A stretch of DNA of 64,000 nt from Candidatus Zixiibacteriota bacterium (GTDB taxonomy: Bacteria > Zixibacteria > MSB-5A5 > GN15 > FEB-12). The stretch is taken from the NCBI GenBank assembly GCA_028289585.1, contig JANQPI010000035.1, positions 218,717 through 282,716 on the forward strand, in the 5' to 3' direction. The position numbers and the translations under genes were made by a program. This document shows positions 51,728-60,008 of the stretch, one piece after another (positions within the stretch are counted from its first letter, which is position 1; each line of letters opens with the position of its first letter). The notes beneath the pieces are model-generated. The model worked only from the letters and a program-made list of their open reading frames with translations, was not told where the DNA came from and made no database searches.

Positions 51728-52885
51728 TTGCAGATTAGAGACCAGTTAAGAGAGCTGATTAACGATCCTCTGCTAACGAAAATAGCTCTCATTCTTTCTG
51801 AACCGAATCTCTTCTATGTACTCAGACTCCAACGCCACGAGATCCGACACTCGAATTTCTTAGCCTGGCTACTCGATCCAAACGCCAGTCACGGACTTGG
51901 CGACAAGTTCCTTAGGATGTTCTTAAAGGATGTTGCGGTTCGAGCTTCGCTGAATGAGTTCGATGAGTTTCAGATGGATGCTTGTCCTCTCGAAGAGACC
52001 GTAGTCTTACGGGAGTGGAAAAACATCGACATCCTGATTCGTACAAGCTCGTTCGTCATTTGTATTGAGAATAAGGTCGATGCAAAGGAGTATTCGAACC
52101 AGCTATCGAGGTATCGACAGACGGTATCTTCTGCCTATCCTGACACGCCTGCCGCTCATGTCTTTTTAACACCAGATGAGGTGATGCCATCTGACCCCGA
52201 TGATGTAGAAGCTTTTGTTACCTATGGTTATGCTCGGATTTGTGAACACCTTGAAGTAATCATTCGACTTTTCTCGACTGCAATGTCGAGGAAGGTTGAA
52301 GGCTATATCGCTGAGTATAGTGAGTTATTGAGGCGTGAAGTTATGCAAAACGACGAAGCAAGTGACCTCGCCCGCCAGATTTATCAAACACACAGGCAGG
52401 CATTAGATTTCATTCTTGAGCATCGCCCGGACCGTCTTCGGGAGGTCGGTCCGATGCTGGAGTCAATGATAAGGGAGAGTGGATGGGTTTTATGCAGTTC
52501 GAGTAAGGGCCAAATCAGATTTTTAACCCAATCCCTTGTGAAATCCCTGCCGAAAACTGGTAACTCTAAAGGTTGGAAAGGCCGGGAAAGCTTCCTTTTC
52601 GAGTTTGATTTATACAGCGGTCGGATTGTGTTCAAGACCACCATTTCGCCCGGGGATGAATCGGTCAGGAGTCAATTACGTGGCGTTCTTGACAAGTTAG
52701 AAGATGCGAGAAAAAAATTGGGAAAGGAATGGGTTACTCATTTCATCCTGAGTTGGACTTTTGATGTAACTGACGAGAGTGAAGACCTCGATAAGGTCCA
52801 AAAGATGTTCGAGTCGATTTGGCCAGAAGTAAAAACCCTCGTGAGTACGGTGGATTCAGCACTGTCAGGACTCAGATTCACGTAA
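51728..52885 (+). CDS. PD-(D/E)XK nuclease superfamily protein
   Basis: 385 residues from TTG 51728 (GAGGGA upstream). It opens with a helical segment ending RHSNFLAWLLDPNASHGLG, typical of the PDDEXK_4 'PD-(D/E)XK nuclease' family. The catalytic core shows NIDILIR (Asp) and CIENKVDAKE (ExK-type), followed by a Gln in the next helix (NQLSRYRQTV). The C-terminal 200 residues are family-specific. Members occur with defence or repair genes but most are uncharacterised. Its base composition looks more A/T-rich than its neighbours, suggesting acquisition. It converges on the helicase gene. Confidence 0.78.
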   Translation: MQIRDQLRELINDPLLTKIALILSEPNLFYVLRLQRHEIRHSNFLAWLLDPNASHGLGDKFLRMFLKDVAVRASLNEFDEFQMDACPLEETVVLREWKNIDILIRTSSFVICIENKVDAKEYSNQLSRYRQTVSSAYPDTPAAHVFLTPDEVMPSDPDDVEAFVTYGYARICEHLEVIIRLFSTAMSRKVEGYIAEYSELLRREVMQNDEASDLARQIYQTHRQALDFILEHRPDRLREVGPMLESMIRESGWVLCSSSKGQIRFLTQSLVKSLPKTGNSKGWKGRESFLFEFDLYSGRIVFKTTISPGDESVRSQLRGVLDKLEDARKKLGKEWVTHFILSWTFDVTDESEDLDKVQKMFESIWPEVKTLVSTVDSALSGLRFT

Positions 52886-52992: not shown

Positions 52993-55272
52993 TTACGCTA
53001 CCGTCACGGCCAGCATGTATTCCAGCAGTCGGCGGGCGCCCTCTTTACCGTTCTCACCGACCTCCAGCGATGGCCCGACGCAACTCGGACAGCCTTTGTC
53101 ACAGGCGCACTGACGAATCTGCTCCAGGCAGGCATCGAATAGCGGCTCATGCTCGCGATACAGCTTGTCCGACAGACCAACGCCCCCCGGAATGTTTTCG
53201 TAGATATAGACCGTCGGCATTTCGGTAAACGGCGCCCGCACCTGGGAGATAGCTCGCAAGTCGCGTGTATCGCACATCACCCAGAGCGGGGCAATCTTGC
53301 CGAGAATATTGGCAAGCCCGCGTAGTGCACCACCGAACGTGCTCCCGTCGACATCAATCTTGTGCGCAATGTCGCCCGGGAACGCATACCAGAACGCGTG
53401 GGTGTGCATCTCCAGCTCAGGGAGCTTTAACTCTCCGGCACCGACGTTCTCGTGGGTCTCGAAGCGAATCTTCTTGAAGAGCACGGTTGTGCTCGCAATC
53501 GATACTTCACCGAGCGTAATGCGAGCTTGATCGACCGTTATTGTCTGATCGTTCTCGGCGATCACTTTCAGGTCGGTCTTCGTTTCGGCATCGGTGTAGT
53601 AGTCGACGTTGACTTCTTTGACGTACGCCTTCTTGCCGTCCCAATCGAGCTTCGTCACCTGATACTGTTCACCCCCATGAAGGTAAATCGCCTCTTCATG
53701 GAGAAAAACCGGCGCCGAGAACCAGTCGACTTTTCCAATCACGTCGTAGTTTCGTGACTCGTTGAGAATGACGAAGTTGTCCGGCGACGCCGCGCGCAGG
53801 GAGACCTGTTGGGCGGGATAGATATCCGACGACCAATGCCAGCGATCATTGGTACGTCGCATCACCTCCTGCTCGGCGAGATAGTCGAGGATCTCACCGG
53901 TGCCGGTCCGCTCACCCGCTTCATCGAGATCAAACGGCAGCTCGAATGTCGCGCACTTGAGATGATTGGTGCGGATGATCAGGTTTTCGGGGTCGATGAT
54001 GCCGTTCTCCGGCGTACGATCGAACACGAAACGGGGTTCGTTGACCAGGAACTGGTTGATCGCCGACGAATTGCAGACGAGGATTGAGAGCGACGTTCCC
54101 TGGCGACGCCCGGCCCGTCCGGCCTGCTGCCAGAGCGAGGCGATTGAGCCAGGATACCCAACGATAATCGAAACGTCGAGCGAGCCGATATCGATGCCGA
54201 GTTCGAGGGCATTGGTCGAAACCACACCGGTGATTGAACCGTCGCGGAGCCCCCGCTCGATGCGCCGCCGTTCATTTGGGAGATAGCCGCCACGGTACCC
54301 TTCGATCGTAATCCCCTGACCGAACTTCCCGGCCAGCTCCCGTCGCAGTTGGGTCAGAATCACTTCAACGTACAGTCGGGCGTGGGCGAAGACGATCGTC
54401 TGAATCCGTTGGCCAAGCAGCGTTGTGGCAAGGCGACATGCCTCGTTGACTGCCGATCGGCGAATGCCGAGTTCTTTGTTCACTACCGGCGGGTTGTACA
54501 TCAGGAAGTGCTTGTCACCCCGAGGGGCGCCGTTGTTGTCGATCAGGGTGACATCCCGCTCGGTAATGCGCGAGGCCAGCTCTTTCGGATTGGCGATTGT
54601 CGCCGAGCAGCAGATGAACTGCGGGCGTGAACCGTAGAACGCACAGATCCGCGACAGCCGACGCATGACGTTGGCAAGATGTGAACCGAACACGCCCCGG
54701 TACTGATGCACCTCATCAATGACGACGTACTGTAGATTCTCAAAGAGCTTGATCCACTTCGTATGATGGGGGAGAATCCCGGCATGCAGCATGTCGGGAT
54801 TGGTCATTACGATATGTCCGGCCGAGCGGATCGCCCGGCGGGCATCGGTCGGCGTATCACCGTCGAACGTGTATGTCTTGATGTCAGCCTCAAGGCGCTG
54901 GATAACGTCGTACAACTCAGCCATCTGATCCTGAGCAAGCGCCTTGGTCGGGAAGAGGTAGAGCGCCCGGGTATCACGATTCTTCAACACTGCATCAAGA
55001 ACGGGCAGGTTGTAGCAAAGCGTTTTGCCGGAAGCGGTGGGGGTGACGACAACGATATCCTCGCCGGCATGCGTACGTTCCAAGGCGTCGGCCTGATGAG
55101 AATAGAGTGTCTTGATCCCGCGTTCACTCAGGGAGCCGACGAGGCGCCGGTCGAGCCAGGCAGGGAACTCTGCCGTGACGGCATCGGTAGCCGCAAACGA
55201 CTTCCAATGCGTGACGTTAGCGTTTATCGACGGATCGTTTTTGAGGAGATCAAGGACTTGCTCGAGTGTCAT
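52993..55272 (-). CDS. DEVH-box helicase with C-terminal Cys cluster (MrfA/YprA-like)
   Basis: 759 residues, SF2 helicase. Motif I VVTPTASGKTLCY, Ia YLFPTKALAQDQ, Ib MTNPDMLHAGILPHH, II VIDEVHQYRG (DEVH), III CCSATIANP, IV-VI including TNALELGIDIGSL and QQAGRAGRRQG. The C-terminal DUF1998-type region ends CACDKGCPSCVG, a four-Cys metal cluster as in MrfA, which acts in mitomycin adduct repair in Bacillus. It is the third gene of a minus-strand run, 25 nt after the archaemetzincin-like gene. An MrfB-type exonuclease partner is absent. Confidence 0.88.
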   Translation of the reverse strand: MTLEQVLDLLKNDPSINANVTHWKSFAATDAVTAEFPAWLDRRLVGSLSERGIKTLYSHQADALERTHAGEDIVVVTPTASGKTLCYNLPVLDAVLKNRDTRALYLFPTKALAQDQMAELYDVIQRLEADIKTYTFDGDTPTDARRAIRSAGHIVMTNPDMLHAGILPHHTKWIKLFENLQYVVIDEVHQYRGVFGSHLANVMRRLSRICAFYGSRPQFICCSATIANPKELASRITERDVTLIDNNGAPRGDKHFLMYNPPVVNKELGIRRSAVNEACRLATTLLGQRIQTIVFAHARLYVEVILTQLRRELAGKFGQGITIEGYRGGYLPNERRRIERGLRDGSITGVVSTNALELGIDIGSLDVSIIVGYPGSIASLWQQAGRAGRRQGTSLSILVCNSSAINQFLVNEPRFVFDRTPENGIIDPENLIIRTNHLKCATFELPFDLDEAGERTGTGEILDYLAEQEVMRRTNDRWHWSSDIYPAQQVSLRAASPDNFVILNESRNYDVIGKVDWFSAPVFLHEEAIYLHGGEQYQVTKLDWDGKKAYVKEVNVDYYTDAETKTDLKVIAENDQTITVDQARITLGEVSIASTTVLFKKIRFETHENVGAGELKLPELEMHTHAFWYAFPGDIAHKIDVDGSTFGGALRGLANILGKIAPLWVMCDTRDLRAISQVRAPFTEMPTVYIYENIPGGVGLSDKLYREHEPLFDACLEQIRQCACDKGCPSCVGPSLEVGENGKEGARRLLEYMLAVTVA

Positions 55273-55297: not shown

Positions 55298-55861
55298 CTA
55301 GACAGGGGAGCGATTGAGCGAGCGGAGACAGATGTCGCAGAATTTCTCGCCCTTGCTATCGATGTCCAGCATGACGTCGCTGTAATAGTTTACGCAGCGC
55401 GGATTGCGGCACGACGGCATCTCGAAGAGCTGAGCCAATAAGCGCAGGGCTTCCTTGTAGAGCCGTGGATAGACCTGGCTTTCATCCTCCGGAAGACCAT
55501 AGAACTCCTGCCGGAGGTTGTGTAGCGAGAGAACCGCAGTGCCCGACAGCCGATCGACACAATGGGAGACCTGGCTGCTATTGGGCAGATAGAGGTCTTC
55601 CTCGCACACGGCAATCACTTTTTCTCGGCTGTTTGCCTTCGATCGCTCGATCTTGGACAGAACAACCTGGGCATAGTACTGATTGCGTAGAACGTTGAAC
55701 GCTTCCGTCGGCATCTTCATCCCCTTGAGGATATCGACGGAGCGGTTGAAGACGGGGCCGATATTTGACGCCAGCTTGTTGACCATCATAAAGTCAACCT
55801 CCCCCAGTGGCACGACCACGATCTTCGACTTGAGTATCGATACCTGGACAACGGGACTCAT
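55298..55861 (-). CDS. archaemetzincin homologue lacking the catalytic motif
   Basis: 187 residues from ATG 55859-55861, 7 nt after the small Cys protein. It aligns in order with archaemetzincins (M54): IVVVPLGEVDFMM, NVLRNQYYAQVVLSKIE, KVIAVCEEDLYLPNSS, AVLSLHNLRQEFYGLPED, then KEALRLLAQLFEMPSCRNPR and a C-V...FCDIC tail. The family motif HExxHxxGxxH becomes RLLAQLFEMPS: every zinc ligand (three His) and the catalytic Glu are replaced, while the structural-zinc cysteines (C-x4-C, C-x2-C) are kept. It is therefore a pseudo-protease, probably a zinc-stabilised binding protein. Role unknown. Confidence 0.8.
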   Translation of the reverse strand: MSPVVQVSILKSKIVVVPLGEVDFMMVNKLASNIGPVFNRSVDILKGMKMPTEAFNVLRNQYYAQVVLSKIERSKANSREKVIAVCEEDLYLPNSSQVSHCVDRLSGTAVLSLHNLRQEFYGLPEDESQVYPRLYKEALRLLAQLFEMPSCRNPRCVNYYSDVMLDIDSKGEKFCDICLRSLNRSPV

Positions 55862-55868
55862 TGCACGC

Positions 55869-56054
55869 TTACCCTGCACGATAGAAACGCGATTTGCTGC
55901 CGCCGGATTCGACGCGTACGCGAATTGGCGTGGCACACCGGGGACAGTGACCGGCAAAGGCGCGGCGATCGGCAGTCAGATAGACCCGGCCGTACACGCT
56001 GCAGCAGTTGAAATGGACGCCGATGAACGGTTTGTTGGTCTGGTGAGCTGGCAC
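55869..56054 (-). CDS. small Cys-rich zinc-ribbon-like protein
   Basis: 61 residues, GTG start (56052-56054). FIGVHFNCCSVYGRVY, then GHCPRCATPIRVRVES and GSKSRFYRAG: a CC pair and a CPRC pair with a basic C-terminus, consistent with a small zinc ribbon. I recall similar uncharacterised small proteins with 'GxCPRCxxPxxVxV...(R/K)FF' in other phyla. TATATT lies 5 nt before the GTG, implying a leaderless start. It heads the operon with the pseudo-archaemetzincin and helicase; its GCAGGG end serves as ribosome-binding site for the next gene. Confidence 0.72.
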   Translation of the reverse strand: MPAHQTNKPFIGVHFNCCSVYGRVYLTADRRAFAGHCPRCATPIRVRVESGGSKSRFYRAG

Positions 56055-56102: not shown

Positions 56103-56777
56103 CTAGTCGAGCAACTCGAAAGCTCGGGAGCTGCCAATCATGCGCGCTCCCGCGTCGAGCAGCGCCAATGCCTCCACGCGAGTACGAATCCCGCCAGCGG
56201 CTTTGATACCAATACCTTTCGGAAGTTCGTCGGCGAGTCGGCGGACGATGCTCAGGTGGCGTTCATGAGGAAGGGGATGATACCCCGTCCCGGTCTTGAT
56301 CACATCTGCGCCGGCGTTGGCCAGAGCGAGTGCGCTCGGCACGATCAGATTGTCGGCCAGGTGTGACATCTCGACGATCATCTTGAGCATCGTATCGGTG
56401 TTGACCTCGTGCCGAACCGATTCGACTTCCCGCTGCAATCCGTCGAAATCGCCGGCTAAAGCCATGTCGAGACGCGCGACAATATCGAGTTCGCTCGCGC
56501 CGGCGTCGATTGCGCTTCGGGCGGCGGCGACTTTTGTCATCGTCGAATCGGCGCCCAGCGGGAAACTGATGACCGTGACAAGGCGAAGTTCTTTGGCTGA
56601 GTGTCGAGACCGTACGAGTGGTATCCATGCCGGATTGATGCAGATTGCTCTAACCCGCGACTCCACACATCGCTCTGCCAATCTGATGATCTCATGCTCA
56701 GTTGCTTCAGGACGAAGGTCAGTTGCCTCCAATGACAACCGCAAACGTTTCGTATCGGGAGAGGGTGACGCCGTCAT
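56103..56777 (-). CDS. deoC: deoxyribose-phosphate aldolase
   Basis: 224 residues. Cleaves 2-deoxyribose-5-phosphate to glyceraldehyde-3-phosphate and acetaldehyde. Class I aldolase marks: AICINPAWIPLV, VTVISFPLGADSTMTK, ELDIVARLDMALAGD, the Schiff-base lysine in DVIKTGTGYHP, and the second lysine in GIKAAGGIRT. Its ATG overlaps the deoB stop as ATGA, and the two form a nucleoside-salvage pair. Confidence 0.94.
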   Translation of the reverse strand: MTASPSPDTKRLRLSLEATDLRPEATEHEIIRLAERCVESRVRAICINPAWIPLVRSRHSAKELRLVTVISFPLGADSTMTKVAAARSAIDAGASELDIVARLDMALAGDFDGLQREVESVRHEVNTDTMLKMIVEMSHLADNLIVPSALALANAGADVIKTGTGYHPLPHERHLSIVRRLADELPKGIGIKAAGGIRTRVEALALLDAGARMIGSSRAFELLD

Positions 56778-57964
56778 TTGCCCAGGAGCTCGCGACGGAA
56801 TGACAGGCCGGGGAGAGCGGCGTGATCGACAAAGAAGATATCAGCGATCGTCTTTGCCACATCTGCAAAGGTTGTTCGCGTGCCGAGATCGACGCCCGGT
56901 CGGACAGCCTTGCCGGTTGCGAGCAGCGGGACATATTCGCGGGTGTGGTCGGTGGAGTGGGTAAGTGTTGGGTCGCAGCCATGGTCGGCGGTGATCAGCA
57001 GCAGGTCGTGTGGACGGAGTTTCGGAAGCAGTTCGCCGAGAGACTCGTCAAACAACTCCAGCGCCGCGGCAAAGCCACGTACGTCATTGCGATGACCATA
57101 CGTTTGATCAAAATCGACACAGTTGGCGAACAGAAGGTGACTGTCGTGGTCGTTTTCGACGCGTTCGTGCAACGCACGAAGAACGGACGCATTATCGCCC
57201 GCCTTGACCGAATATGTTACCCCGCGTCCAGCAAAGAGGTCATAGACCTTGCCGATAGTTGTCACATCGCAGTTCCGCTTTACCAGGAGGTCGAGGACAG
57301 TATCGGTTGGAGGCAGGCGGGAGAAATCCTTGCGATTGACCGTACGGGAATAGCTTCCGGGTTCTCCGATGAATGGCCGCGCGATGACTCGACCAACATC
57401 GAATTCTCCCGAACAGAGGAGCCGCGCTGTTCGACAGATACGATAGAGATCAGGAATCGGATAGAGTTCTTCGTGTGCGGCGAGCTGAAAAACGGAATCG
57501 GCCGACGTATACAGGATCGGTTTGCGCGTCGCTAGGTGCTCCGCGCCGAGGCGGGCAATGATTTCCGTGCCGCTCGCGGTTTCGTTGCCCAGAACGCCCG
57601 GAATCCCCGTCTCAGCGACGAATCGATCCACCAGATCATCCGGAAAGCCATGTGGAAAGAGGGGGAGGGGTGTGGGCAGGATGTACCCCGCGAGTTCCCA
57701 GTGGCCGGTTGTCGAGTCTTTGCCCGGAGCTTGCTCCATCATTCGTCCGAACGCTCCGCTAGCTTCCATCTCGGACGACAGACCGGCGATATCGGCAAGG
57801 CGTCCGAGGCCGAGCTGCTCTAGATGGGTAAGAGACAGTCCGCCAACGGCAGCGGCAACATTGGGGATCGTCGCTGCCCCATCGTCATCGTACGCTGCGG
57901 CATCGGGCAGTTCCCCGATGCCGCAGGCATCGATAATCAGCAGAATGACTCGTTGGAATGACAC
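56774..57964 (-). CDS. deoB: phosphopentomutase
   Basis: 396 residues, GTG start. Interconverts (deoxy)ribose-1-phosphate and -5-phosphate. Alkaline-phosphatase-like metal sites: LLIIDACGIGELPDA, the phospho-Thr region KDSTTGHWELAG, DFDQTYGHRND, ITADHGCDPT and DHTREYVPLL. Upstream partner of deoC (ATGA overlap), together degrading deoxynucleosides. No phosphorylase or deoR-like regulator is adjacent. Confidence 0.95.
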   Translation of the reverse strand: MSFQRVILLIIDACGIGELPDAAAYDDDGAATIPNVAAAVGGLSLTHLEQLGLGRLADIAGLSSEMEASGAFGRMMEQAPGKDSTTGHWELAGYILPTPLPLFPHGFPDDLVDRFVAETGIPGVLGNETASGTEIIARLGAEHLATRKPILYTSADSVFQLAAHEELYPIPDLYRICRTARLLCSGEFDVGRVIARPFIGEPGSYSRTVNRKDFSRLPPTDTVLDLLVKRNCDVTTIGKVYDLFAGRGVTYSVKAGDNASVLRALHERVENDHDSHLLFANCVDFDQTYGHRNDVRGFAAALELFDESLGELLPKLRPHDLLLITADHGCDPTLTHSTDHTREYVPLLATGKAVRPGVDLGTRTTFADVAKTIADIFFVDHAALPGLSFRRELLGK

Positions 57965-57982: not shown

Positions 57983-58840
57983 TCAGCTATCTGTGGCCGC
58001 GACTACCTGATCCATCTCCACATGGAACGAGCCGATAAGGGTCGCTGGTCGCCAGACACCGTCGGGGTCGAGTCGTTCGCGTTCGCTAACCAGCTCCCGA
58101 TACTCTGTCTGGCGCACGAGAACGCCGTTGACGTAGTCGAAGTAGTAAGTGCCGGAAGTTGCGACAGTCGTCACCCCTCGCACAACAAGATCGGCAGTCG
58201 TATCGGGCAGTACGGGTAGGATCAGTGTGCCAGCATATTTAAGAATGATACAGTCGCGACCATCGTGGTTGCCAATCGACATGACCTCGAAAGTCGTGCG
58301 CGCCTCATGAGGCTCGCTGCCGATTGCAACTGTCTTGGTTTGGCTCCACGTATCACCAACCCGCAGCTCGCGACTCGGAAAGACCGGCCAGCTCTGCTCG
58401 ATCTGTTCGCGCATTGACTCTAGCTCAAGAGTCGATCCGGTATCCTCGGGAGCATACTGAATATCGACCAGCATCCCGTTCGGAGCGTAGTCAAAGTCGA
58501 GCATCGGCCCAGCGATTTCGGTGTGAGTCGTATCACCGGTCAGGAGGTCGATCCGACGAATCGAGTAGTCACTCGCCTGTCGCCAGCGGCCAATCGTGTC
58601 GTTGATAAGCTCCACGCACGCTTCGTCGAGCTGAAGGTCGATCGCGATATCTCGATGCCACAGGACTCCCGTGCTGTCCTCGAGAATTGATTCACCGATA
58701 TACGAGACCTGGAATGTATTAGTCTGCCCCGGCTCGAAAGTGAGCCGCATCGTAACTGAGGGTTCCTCAACCTGGTTGCAGCTCAAGAGGATGCCAACCA
58801 AGAGCGCGGCGGAGAGGCGACATGCGGTGCTTGTGATCAT
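57983..58840 (-). CDS. uncharacterised lipoprotein, beta-rich
   Basis: 285 residues. A lipoprotein signal (RLSAALLVGILLSC) has Cys at 21. The mature part contains AIDLQLDEACVELINDTIG, SMREQIEQSWPVFPSRELRVGDTW and CIILKYAGTLILPV; the spacing resembles a group of periplasmic proteins (DUF6263-like) found in FCB genomes, but I cannot confirm it. No catalytic motif. It lies 18 nt before deoB; co-transcription is possible without an obvious functional link. Confidence 0.7.
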   Translation of the reverse strand: MITSTACRLSAALLVGILLSCNQVEEPSVTMRLTFEPGQTNTFQVSYIGESILEDSTGVLWHRDIAIDLQLDEACVELINDTIGRWRQASDYSIRRIDLLTGDTTHTEIAGPMLDFDYAPNGMLVDIQYAPEDTGSTLELESMREQIEQSWPVFPSRELRVGDTWSQTKTVAIGSEPHEARTTFEVMSIGNHDGRDCIILKYAGTLILPVLPDTTADLVVRGVTTVATSGTYYFDYVNGVLVRQTEYRELVSERERLDPDGVWRPATLIGSFHVEMDQVVAATDS

Positions 58841-58893: not shown

Positions 58894-59430
58894 CTAAAAG
58901 TCCTCTCCTATCATCAAAGCAAGATCGACGCGACCGAGGCCTCCCGGCGGTGCCAGAGCGAGCATGCCGACAGCCAATTCACGATCTGACGCGACGAGGG
59001 CATCGACCGCTTCCGTGGAGAGAACAGTCGTGCTGGAGGGGGCTGTGGCACCGACCTGGCCATCCGGCTGACGGAGACCGACCCAGACCGCGACCGCGAA
59101 GATGGCGATCGATGCCACGAGGGAGAGGGCGGCTTTCAAGAGGCCGGCGCGAGCATCCGACAACTCCGCCTGGGCCGTTTCGCGTTCGACCGTCTGGGCC
59201 ATGATAAGTGACCGCCGCTCCGCCATAAAATCGTCGCTCGGCACCGGTGTCGACTGGCCAAGTTCACGGAGTAGGCGCACTACCGTCTCATGATCCCGGT
59301 GTTCCTCGCGGAACTCCGGATCCTCGGATAATCGTCGTCGCAAGCGTTCCTGCTCGGCGGCGGTCAACTCCCCGTCGATAGCTCGATCCAGGAGCAATCG
59401 GTCGGAGTCTGAGGGAGTGGAGGGTGTCAT
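58894..59430 (-). CDS. membrane anti-sigma factor
   Basis: 178 residues from ATG 59428-59430 behind GAGGAG. The N-terminal cytoplasmic helix bundle (LLLDRAIDGELTAAEQERLRRRL, EEHRDHETVVRLLRELGQ) resembles anti-sigma domains but lacks the HxxxCxxC zinc motif. One membrane segment (about 113-133), then a short periplasmic tail. It begins 2 nt after the ECF sigma gene's stop, the usual arrangement in which it holds the sigma factor inactive. Confidence 0.83.
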   Translation of the reverse strand: MTPSTPSDSDRLLLDRAIDGELTAAEQERLRRRLSEDPEFREEHRDHETVVRLLRELGQSTPVPSDDFMAERRSLIMAQTVERETAQAELSDARAGLLKAALSLVASIAIFAVAVWVGLRQPDGQVGATAPSSTTVLSTEAVDALVASDRELAVGMLALAPPGGLGRVDLALMIGEDF

Positions 59431-59432
59431 TT

Positions 59433-60008
59433 CTACTCCTCGGTTCTCAATCGCTTTCTCAATATCTTCTTCAGTTTCGTCCGCGCAATATGGAGATTCG
59501 AGCGAACCGTCGCCTCCGGACACTCAAGAATCTCCGCTACCTCCCGTTTGCTGTAGCCCTGTACGTCGTGCAGAATGGCGGTAAGGCGCTGCCTCGGCGG
59601 AAGGGTGTCGAGCGCGCGTATGATTTCGACCATAAGTCGTCGATCACGGAAATCGTCCCCCGGCGTGCGCACATCGGCGGAGAGAATCGTCTGTAACTGG
59701 GCCATCGCCGGGGTATCCTCCTCCGGCCAGCGGTCGTGGCTCCGTTGACGGCGATGCAGATCGATCGCATAGTTTGTCGCCACGCGGAGAAGAAACGACG
59801 TGAAACTGCTGACCTTTCCGAGTTCGTTACGTCGCTTGAAGATCCGGACAAACGTCTCCTGCACCACTTCGTCGGCATCGTAGTGGTTCCGAACGATCTG
59901 GAATGCCACCTGGTAGACTTTCCGTTCATATCGCGCAACAAGCTCCGCGAAGGCACTGTCGTCCCCCGCAACGAAGCGTTCGACCAGTGCTGCTATCTCC
60001 GAGTGCAT
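59433..60008 (-). CDS. ECF RNA polymerase sigma factor
   Basis: 191 residues. Sigma region 2 (FAELVARYERKVYQVAFQIV, DADEVVQETFVRIFKRR, FTSFLLRVATNYAIDLHRR) and region 4 (LDTLPPRQRLTAILHDVQGYSKREVAEILECPEATVRSNLHIAR, here listed as one continuous region 4 helix-turn-helix). It directs polymerase to a regulon controlled by the downstream anti-sigma factor. Divergent from the MFS gene. I saw no clear autoregulated promoter. The ATG is closely preceded by GGAG. Confidence 0.92.
   Translation of the reverse strand: MHSEIAALVERFVAGDDSAFAELVARYERKVYQVAFQIVRNHYDADEVVQETFVRIFKRRNELGKVSSFTSFLLRVATNYAIDLHRRQRSHDRWPEEDTPAMAQLQTILSADVRTPGDDFRDRRLMVEIIRALDTLPPRQRLTAILHDVQGYSKREVAEILECPEATVRSNLHIARTKLKKILRKRLRTEE

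Follow-up and report, generated by a model that had tools for sequence, protein, structure and literature searches.

What keeps a peptidase gene in a genome once the residues that made its product a peptidase are gone? This question is raised by an open reading frame in the window (the whole stretch of 64,000 nucleotides analyzed here). A sequence-only reading had described this frame as an intact gene within an operon, encoding a homologue of the archaemetzincins (M54) in which the catalytic HExxHxxGxxH is replaced by RLLAQLFEMPS while the cysteines of the second zinc site (C-x4-C and C-x2-C) are retained, and had proposed that it is maintained for a non-proteolytic role. The gene and those upstream and downstream of it are:

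52993..55272, minus strand: helicase of SF2 (MrfA/YprA family) containing an MZB zinc domain, 25 nt after M54
55298..55861, minus strand: M54 homologue (pseudo-archaemetzincin), 187 aa, RLLAQLFEMPS, Met-turn Met replaced by Asn, Cys4 present
55869..56054, minus strand: ZRP, 61 aa, resembling a zinc ribbon (CC...CPxC); begins with GTG and ends 7 nt ahead of the M54 gene
56103..56777, minus strand: deoC, deoxyribose-phosphate aldolase, 48 nt upstream of ZRP
56774..57964, minus strand: deoB, phosphopentomutase
57983..58840, minus strand: conserved protein, function unassigned (DUF6263-like, below cut-off; synteny)
58894..59523, minus strand: anti-sigma-factor-like protein (weak match; synteny)
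59433..60008, minus strand: ECF sigma factor (synteny), heading the conserved gene row of the order

The M54 frame is indeed intact, starting with ATG and encoding 187 aa, and it lies in a minus-strand row deoB-deoC-ZRP-M54-helicase, whose genes from deoC on are spaced 48, 7 and 25 nt apart, in line with the operon described earlier. Its product matched the Pfam family PF07998 (Peptidase_M54) with 43 bits (E 6.6e-11; cut-off 24.4) and reached 109 bits against the archaemetzincin model NF033823 of NCBIfam, under the cut-off of 145. Sequence matches in the PDB were the archaemetzincins 3lmc (1.4e-15), 2x7m and 4axq. An AlphaFold (AF2) model computed from 25 orthologues (pLDDT 88.8, pTM 0.85) could be superimposed on 3lmc with a TM-score of 0.79 and on AfAmzA (3zvs_B) with 0.76 (query length) or 0.88 (target length). 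As modeled, the window protein has the archaemetzincin fold, and a chance match or frame artefact was rejected on the Pfam match, the PDB sequence matches and the superposition. The alignment places RLLAQLFEMPS onto the HExxHxxGxxH of archaemetzincins, and the predicted structural zinc site is present with all four cysteines (C151-x4-C156 and C175-x2-C178), both as originally read. To this we add the loss of the Met-turn methionine, which had gone unmentioned; the protein has CVN instead of CVM, with Asn at position 158. The loss of the catalytic residues is consistent with a protein that has no protease activity. No second M54 was found in the window genome. A role in defence was rejected, as PADLOC returned no match for the M54 gene product.

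The gene is widespread among relatives. An M54 orthologue was detected in 56 of 61 relatives and in 38/38 of the good genomes among them (completeness of 90% or more, contamination of 5% or less), although a few of these matches are the more distant canonical paralogue alone, e.g. in G051. Across the phylum (Zixibacteria), some M54 occurs in 120/132 genomes and in 76 of the 78 good ones. A scan of genome contigs gave 24 confirmed loci, nearly all in records titled Zixiibacteriota, GN15, FCB group or unclassified. One record titled Ignavibacterium sp. holds an M54 locus (L017) nearly identical to L047 of the Zixibacteria genome G050; its name is probably wrong.

To follow the motif through the phylum, 132 M54 sequences were aligned, a tree was built without the motif columns, and the residues at each motif position were counted by clade. 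The canonical copies (n = 29) have kept all catalytic residues as well as the Met-turn Met (29/29). In five genomes (G051, G019, G003, G032 and G035), such canonical copies (L056-L060) have different neighbors, being located directly 3' of genes for a sensor kinase and a sigma-54-type response regulator. In the order clade that includes the window (n = 61), the catalytic Glu, the third zinc His and the Met-turn Met are each found in 0/61 sequences. His1 is retained in 52/61 and His2 in 49/61, and the third position is occupied by E in 27 and by D in 8 of the 61; both His are absent from five, the window protein being one of them. A further 21 sequences from other families, forming sister clades, are eroded differently (e.g. 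RVVGALFSIPY, KIVARLMGMRA, KHLGRILGLTL), with R, K, Q, Y or A at the helix positions and no residue in common, and a side clade (n = 13) displays HExxHxxGxxN or HQxxHxxGxxN. Stem copies with intact motif also exist (L085, HELGHTMNLHH; L083, HELGHLMGFKH). Throughout all of these, the Cys4 set is invariant (132/132).

The ancestor of the order had already lost the catalytic Glu, the third zinc His and the Met-turn Met. Since L027, to which the window copy is most closely related, retains HMLAHMYELIA, the double loss of His1 and His2 is recent and sits atop this older one. Relatives share the loss of Glu, third His and Met, and not that of the first two His, which only five of 61 sequences lack together. 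The motif was eroded by degrees, and its complete loss marks the last step, not the state of the family as the sequence-only reading had implied.

Is the eroded gene simply decaying? Close pairs yielded dN/dS values of 0.01-0.06 (NG86), including pairs from which the motif is entirely gone and pairs with KIVARLMGMRA and LQMAHIFEVSA; three pairs were uninformative due to saturated dS. The M54 gene is thus under strong purifying selection. Among 82 eroded sequences, 25 positions are conserved to at least 93% without that residue being fixed in the canonical copies, and eight were lost, half of them in the active site; because divergence is greater among canonical than among eroded sequences, the contrast of 'gained' positions is partly a sampling effect. 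Decay without function would account for the lost motif, but was rejected in view of the dN/dS values, the intact frames, the invariant Cys4 and the presence in every good genome of the order. Maintenance for a non-proteolytic role, as initially proposed, is well supported by the phylum-wide conservation, the low dN/dS, the new invariant positions and the invariant Cys4.

The old cleft might, however, still host an enzyme, working with another metal or another catalytic chemistry. Most orthologues have kept His1 and His2, often with E or D at the third position, which could form a two-His-one-carboxylate site, and regions flanking the helix, e.g. QEFYGLPED, are highly conserved. Constraint is equally strong, though, where both His are lost, as in the window protein, and the 21 sister-clade sequences share no helix residue at all, so that we consider a surviving enzymatic activity very improbable. 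For the many relatives with HxxxH and E/D at the third position, a metal site may nevertheless persist.

Another hint came from the gene directly upstream, which the sequence-only reading had overlooked and which is the most constant partner of M54. The apparent gap of 240 nt after deoC, in which no structural RNA or tRNA was found, contains the gene of a small protein whose family we here name ZRP. A profile built from relatives detected exactly one ZRP copy per genome in 93/132 genomes of the phylum, and in 91 of these 93 it immediately precedes an M54 gene of the same orientation. The two exceptions are G131, where both genes are at or near contig ends, and G038, where they are truly apart. 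ZRP matched no family above cut-off in Pfam or NCBIfam; these searches and a sequence search of the PDB returned only sub-threshold zinc-ribbon matches. The predicted structure is a small four-stranded sheet (pLDDT 84), for which a fold search against the PDB gave nothing at E <1, with a non-significant similarity to Elf1/ELOF1 ribbons. The CC...CPxC spacing together with the four predicted strands suggests that ZRP is a zinc ribbon.

ZRP is found with eroded M54 proteins and with the HExxHxxGxxN/HQxxHxxGxxN side clade, and never with canonical HExxHxxGxxH copies. In families f15 and f17, ZRP-linked M54 proteins (L153-L156, L086, L095, L147) carry HExxH, in one case YExxH, and the third ligand is always Asn, a likeness to human AMZ1. 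The window ZRP sequence is divergent. In G017, the nearest relative of the window genome and the source of L027, M54 and the helicase are kept and no ZRP was detectable in the genome; likewise, no ZRP match was obtained in several families with helicase-linked M54 (G070, G067, G069, G125, G127). These cases indicate that the ZRP-M54 pair is not obligatory. Mobile spread was rejected, as plasmid and viral collections gave no matches.

On the other side, M54 is followed by a helicase that matches YprA (6znp) over residues 10-753 with E 1.4e-263 and 879 bits, i.e. a full-length homologue, and contains PF00270, PF00271, WHD_HRQ1 and MZB (Pfam). Orthologues with at least 53% identity occur in 93 of the phylum's genomes; at least 76 of these, from many families, encode the helicase on the same strand within 2.5 kb downstream of M54, usually within 150 nt. 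In G070, the motif-intact copy L085 lies 126 nt upstream of the helicase, and the link between M54 and helicase must therefore be older than the loss of the active site. The pseudo-protease could, accordingly, be a dedicated accessory subunit of MrfA in the repair of DNA crosslinks or adducts, taking the place that MrfB has in Bacillus, with ZRP as a minor helper. Yet four genomes (G003, G031, G085 and G074) have kept the row deoB-deoC-ZRP-M54 and possess no helicase, and 18 genomes with ZRP, some of them incomplete assemblies, gave no helicase match. The helicase-free genomes that retain ZRP-M54 show that the helicase link is not obligatory. In addition, a strong MrfB-type match (frame of 406-480 aa) was present in 10/10 helicase-positive versus 2/12 helicase-negative genomes among 22 tested (Fisher p 1e-4, with kinship ignored and gene gaps possible in single incomplete assemblies), and M54 stays regardless. 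Loss of MrfA thus tends to go along with loss of MrfB, whereas ZRP-M54 persists, an argument for ZRP and M54 having work of their own. The window genome itself encodes an MrfB-like exonuclease domain (RNase_H_2, 485-aa frame, G000:C23:352971-353477) far from the mrfA-like helicase. We therefore regard a dedicated MrfA subunit as possible but doubtful.

Two neighbors deserve mention. On the opposite strand beside the helicase, 51728-52885(+) encodes a PD-(D/E)XK protein that strongly matches the PADLOC candidate defence family PDC-S26 with 376 bits. DeoC produces acetaldehyde, which reacts with DNA; a connection to a crosslink-repair helicase is an idea only.

That inactive archaemetzincins had no described function, as had been stated, does not hold. 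CarG of Myxococcus xanthus, the one inactive family member to have been characterized, is a non-proteolytic archaemetzincin homologue (HQxxH, Glu to Gln) that forms a tight complex with CarD, needs its Cys4 and does not bind DNA on its own (PMC3427221, PMC4374960, PMC8156234). Its gene lies just downstream of that of CarD, the CarD-CarG complex serves ECF sigma factors, and CarG is limited to myxobacteria (PMC8156234). The NCBIfam model for CarG, NF033824, was matched by 25/25 aligned members. The window protein might hence be a transcription cofactor of the CarG type that operates at ECF sigma factor promoters together with a partner bound to RNA polymerase. This would suit the ECF sigma and anti-sigma-like genes that open the conserved row in the order, as well as the non-significant likeness of the ZRP model to Elf1/ELOF1 ribbons. 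However, the window protein scored 70.5 bits against the CarG equivalog, far under its cut-off of 250, and outside the order ZRP-M54 is found but no sigma or anti-sigma gene was observed in the vicinity of M54. Moreover, no CarD or CdnL protein was detected in the window genome, the only CarD-type domain being part of a 1,172-aa frame that is probably Mfd. CarD itself was rejected as partner of M54, as there is no CarD-like protein beyond this Mfd-sized frame and the gene upstream is ZRP. Taken together, a cofactor of this type appears unlikely, and the sigma/anti-sigma start of the row fits both repair and transcription.

We lean, with slightly more confidence than doubt, towards a retired archaemetzincin that serves as a CarG-like, non-catalytic scaffold bound to ZRP and acts in a nucleic-acid transaction. 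Binding between the two proteins is suggested by gene adjacency and single-copy co-occurrence, and the nucleic-acid role by the ribbon and the helicase. M54 would hold ZRP, perhaps via the former substrate cleft, and bring it to a nucleic-acid process. The MrfA-type helicase encoded next would be a probable, though not indispensable, client and would put ZRP-M54 in either DNA repair or transcription. The line probably started from an active protease whose gene already adjoined that of the helicase. A wider scenario, which we offer tentatively and hold to be rather improbable as a whole, is that the pseudo-archaemetzincin and ZRP together make up a new nucleic-acid factor of two proteins, present across the phylum. 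This factor would descend from an active protease that assisted a repair helicase of the MrfA type, perhaps by clearing protein off damaged DNA, and that later became a non-catalytic module able to outlive the helicase.

Neither the fold, nor the helicase, nor the notion of a dead archaemetzincin is new. We found no account of the phylum-wide ZRP-M54 pair, of the stepwise erosion or of the link to the helicase in the open-access archaemetzincin literature, an absence that is no proof of novelty; the term 'pseudoprotease' does not occur in these papers. A 2025 survey of YprA helicases (PMC12458937) mentions neither metzincin nor peptidase nor protease. With our findings, inactive archaemetzincins no longer comprise a single regulator of myxobacteria but also what looks like a core gene of an entire phylum, in which the family tree has preserved the steps that lead from an intact protease site via HExxHxxGxxN and HQxxH to its disappearance. 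They also point to a possible binding partner, a family of small zinc-ribbon proteins not catalogued before, along with the link to an MrfA-type helicase. The function of dead archaemetzincins, and the reason why MrfA-type helicases keep different partners, hereby become directly testable.

How does the protein compare to known systems? With CarG it shares the M54 fold, the lost catalytic Glu, the retained Cys4 and a gene located directly downstream of that of its partner, which here is a candidate one. In contrast, CarG has three zinc His (HQx2Hx2Ex2H) and the Met, while the window protein has none of the three and no Met, and the partner of CarG, CarD, is without counterpart in the window genome. 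The window protein follows the logic of CarG but is not CarG. With AfAmzA, MkAmzA and 3lmc (MEROPS M54, NF033823) it has in common the fold, the Cys4 zinc finger and the conserved residues Q61, D89, S112, R133, K136, D168 and K170, and differs from them in lacking HExxHxxGxxH and the Met-turn Met. In human AMZ1 the third zinc His is replaced (PMC3427221), as in the 13 sequences of the HExxHxxGxxN side clade; AMZ1, however, keeps HExxH and is reported as an aminopeptidase. Finally, the mitomycin repair system MrfAB (YprAB) is mirrored in the downstream helicase, a full-length MrfA homologue, and in the MrfB-like gene elsewhere in the genome. In Bacillus, mrfA adjoins mrfB, whereas here the helicase adjoins ZRP-M54.
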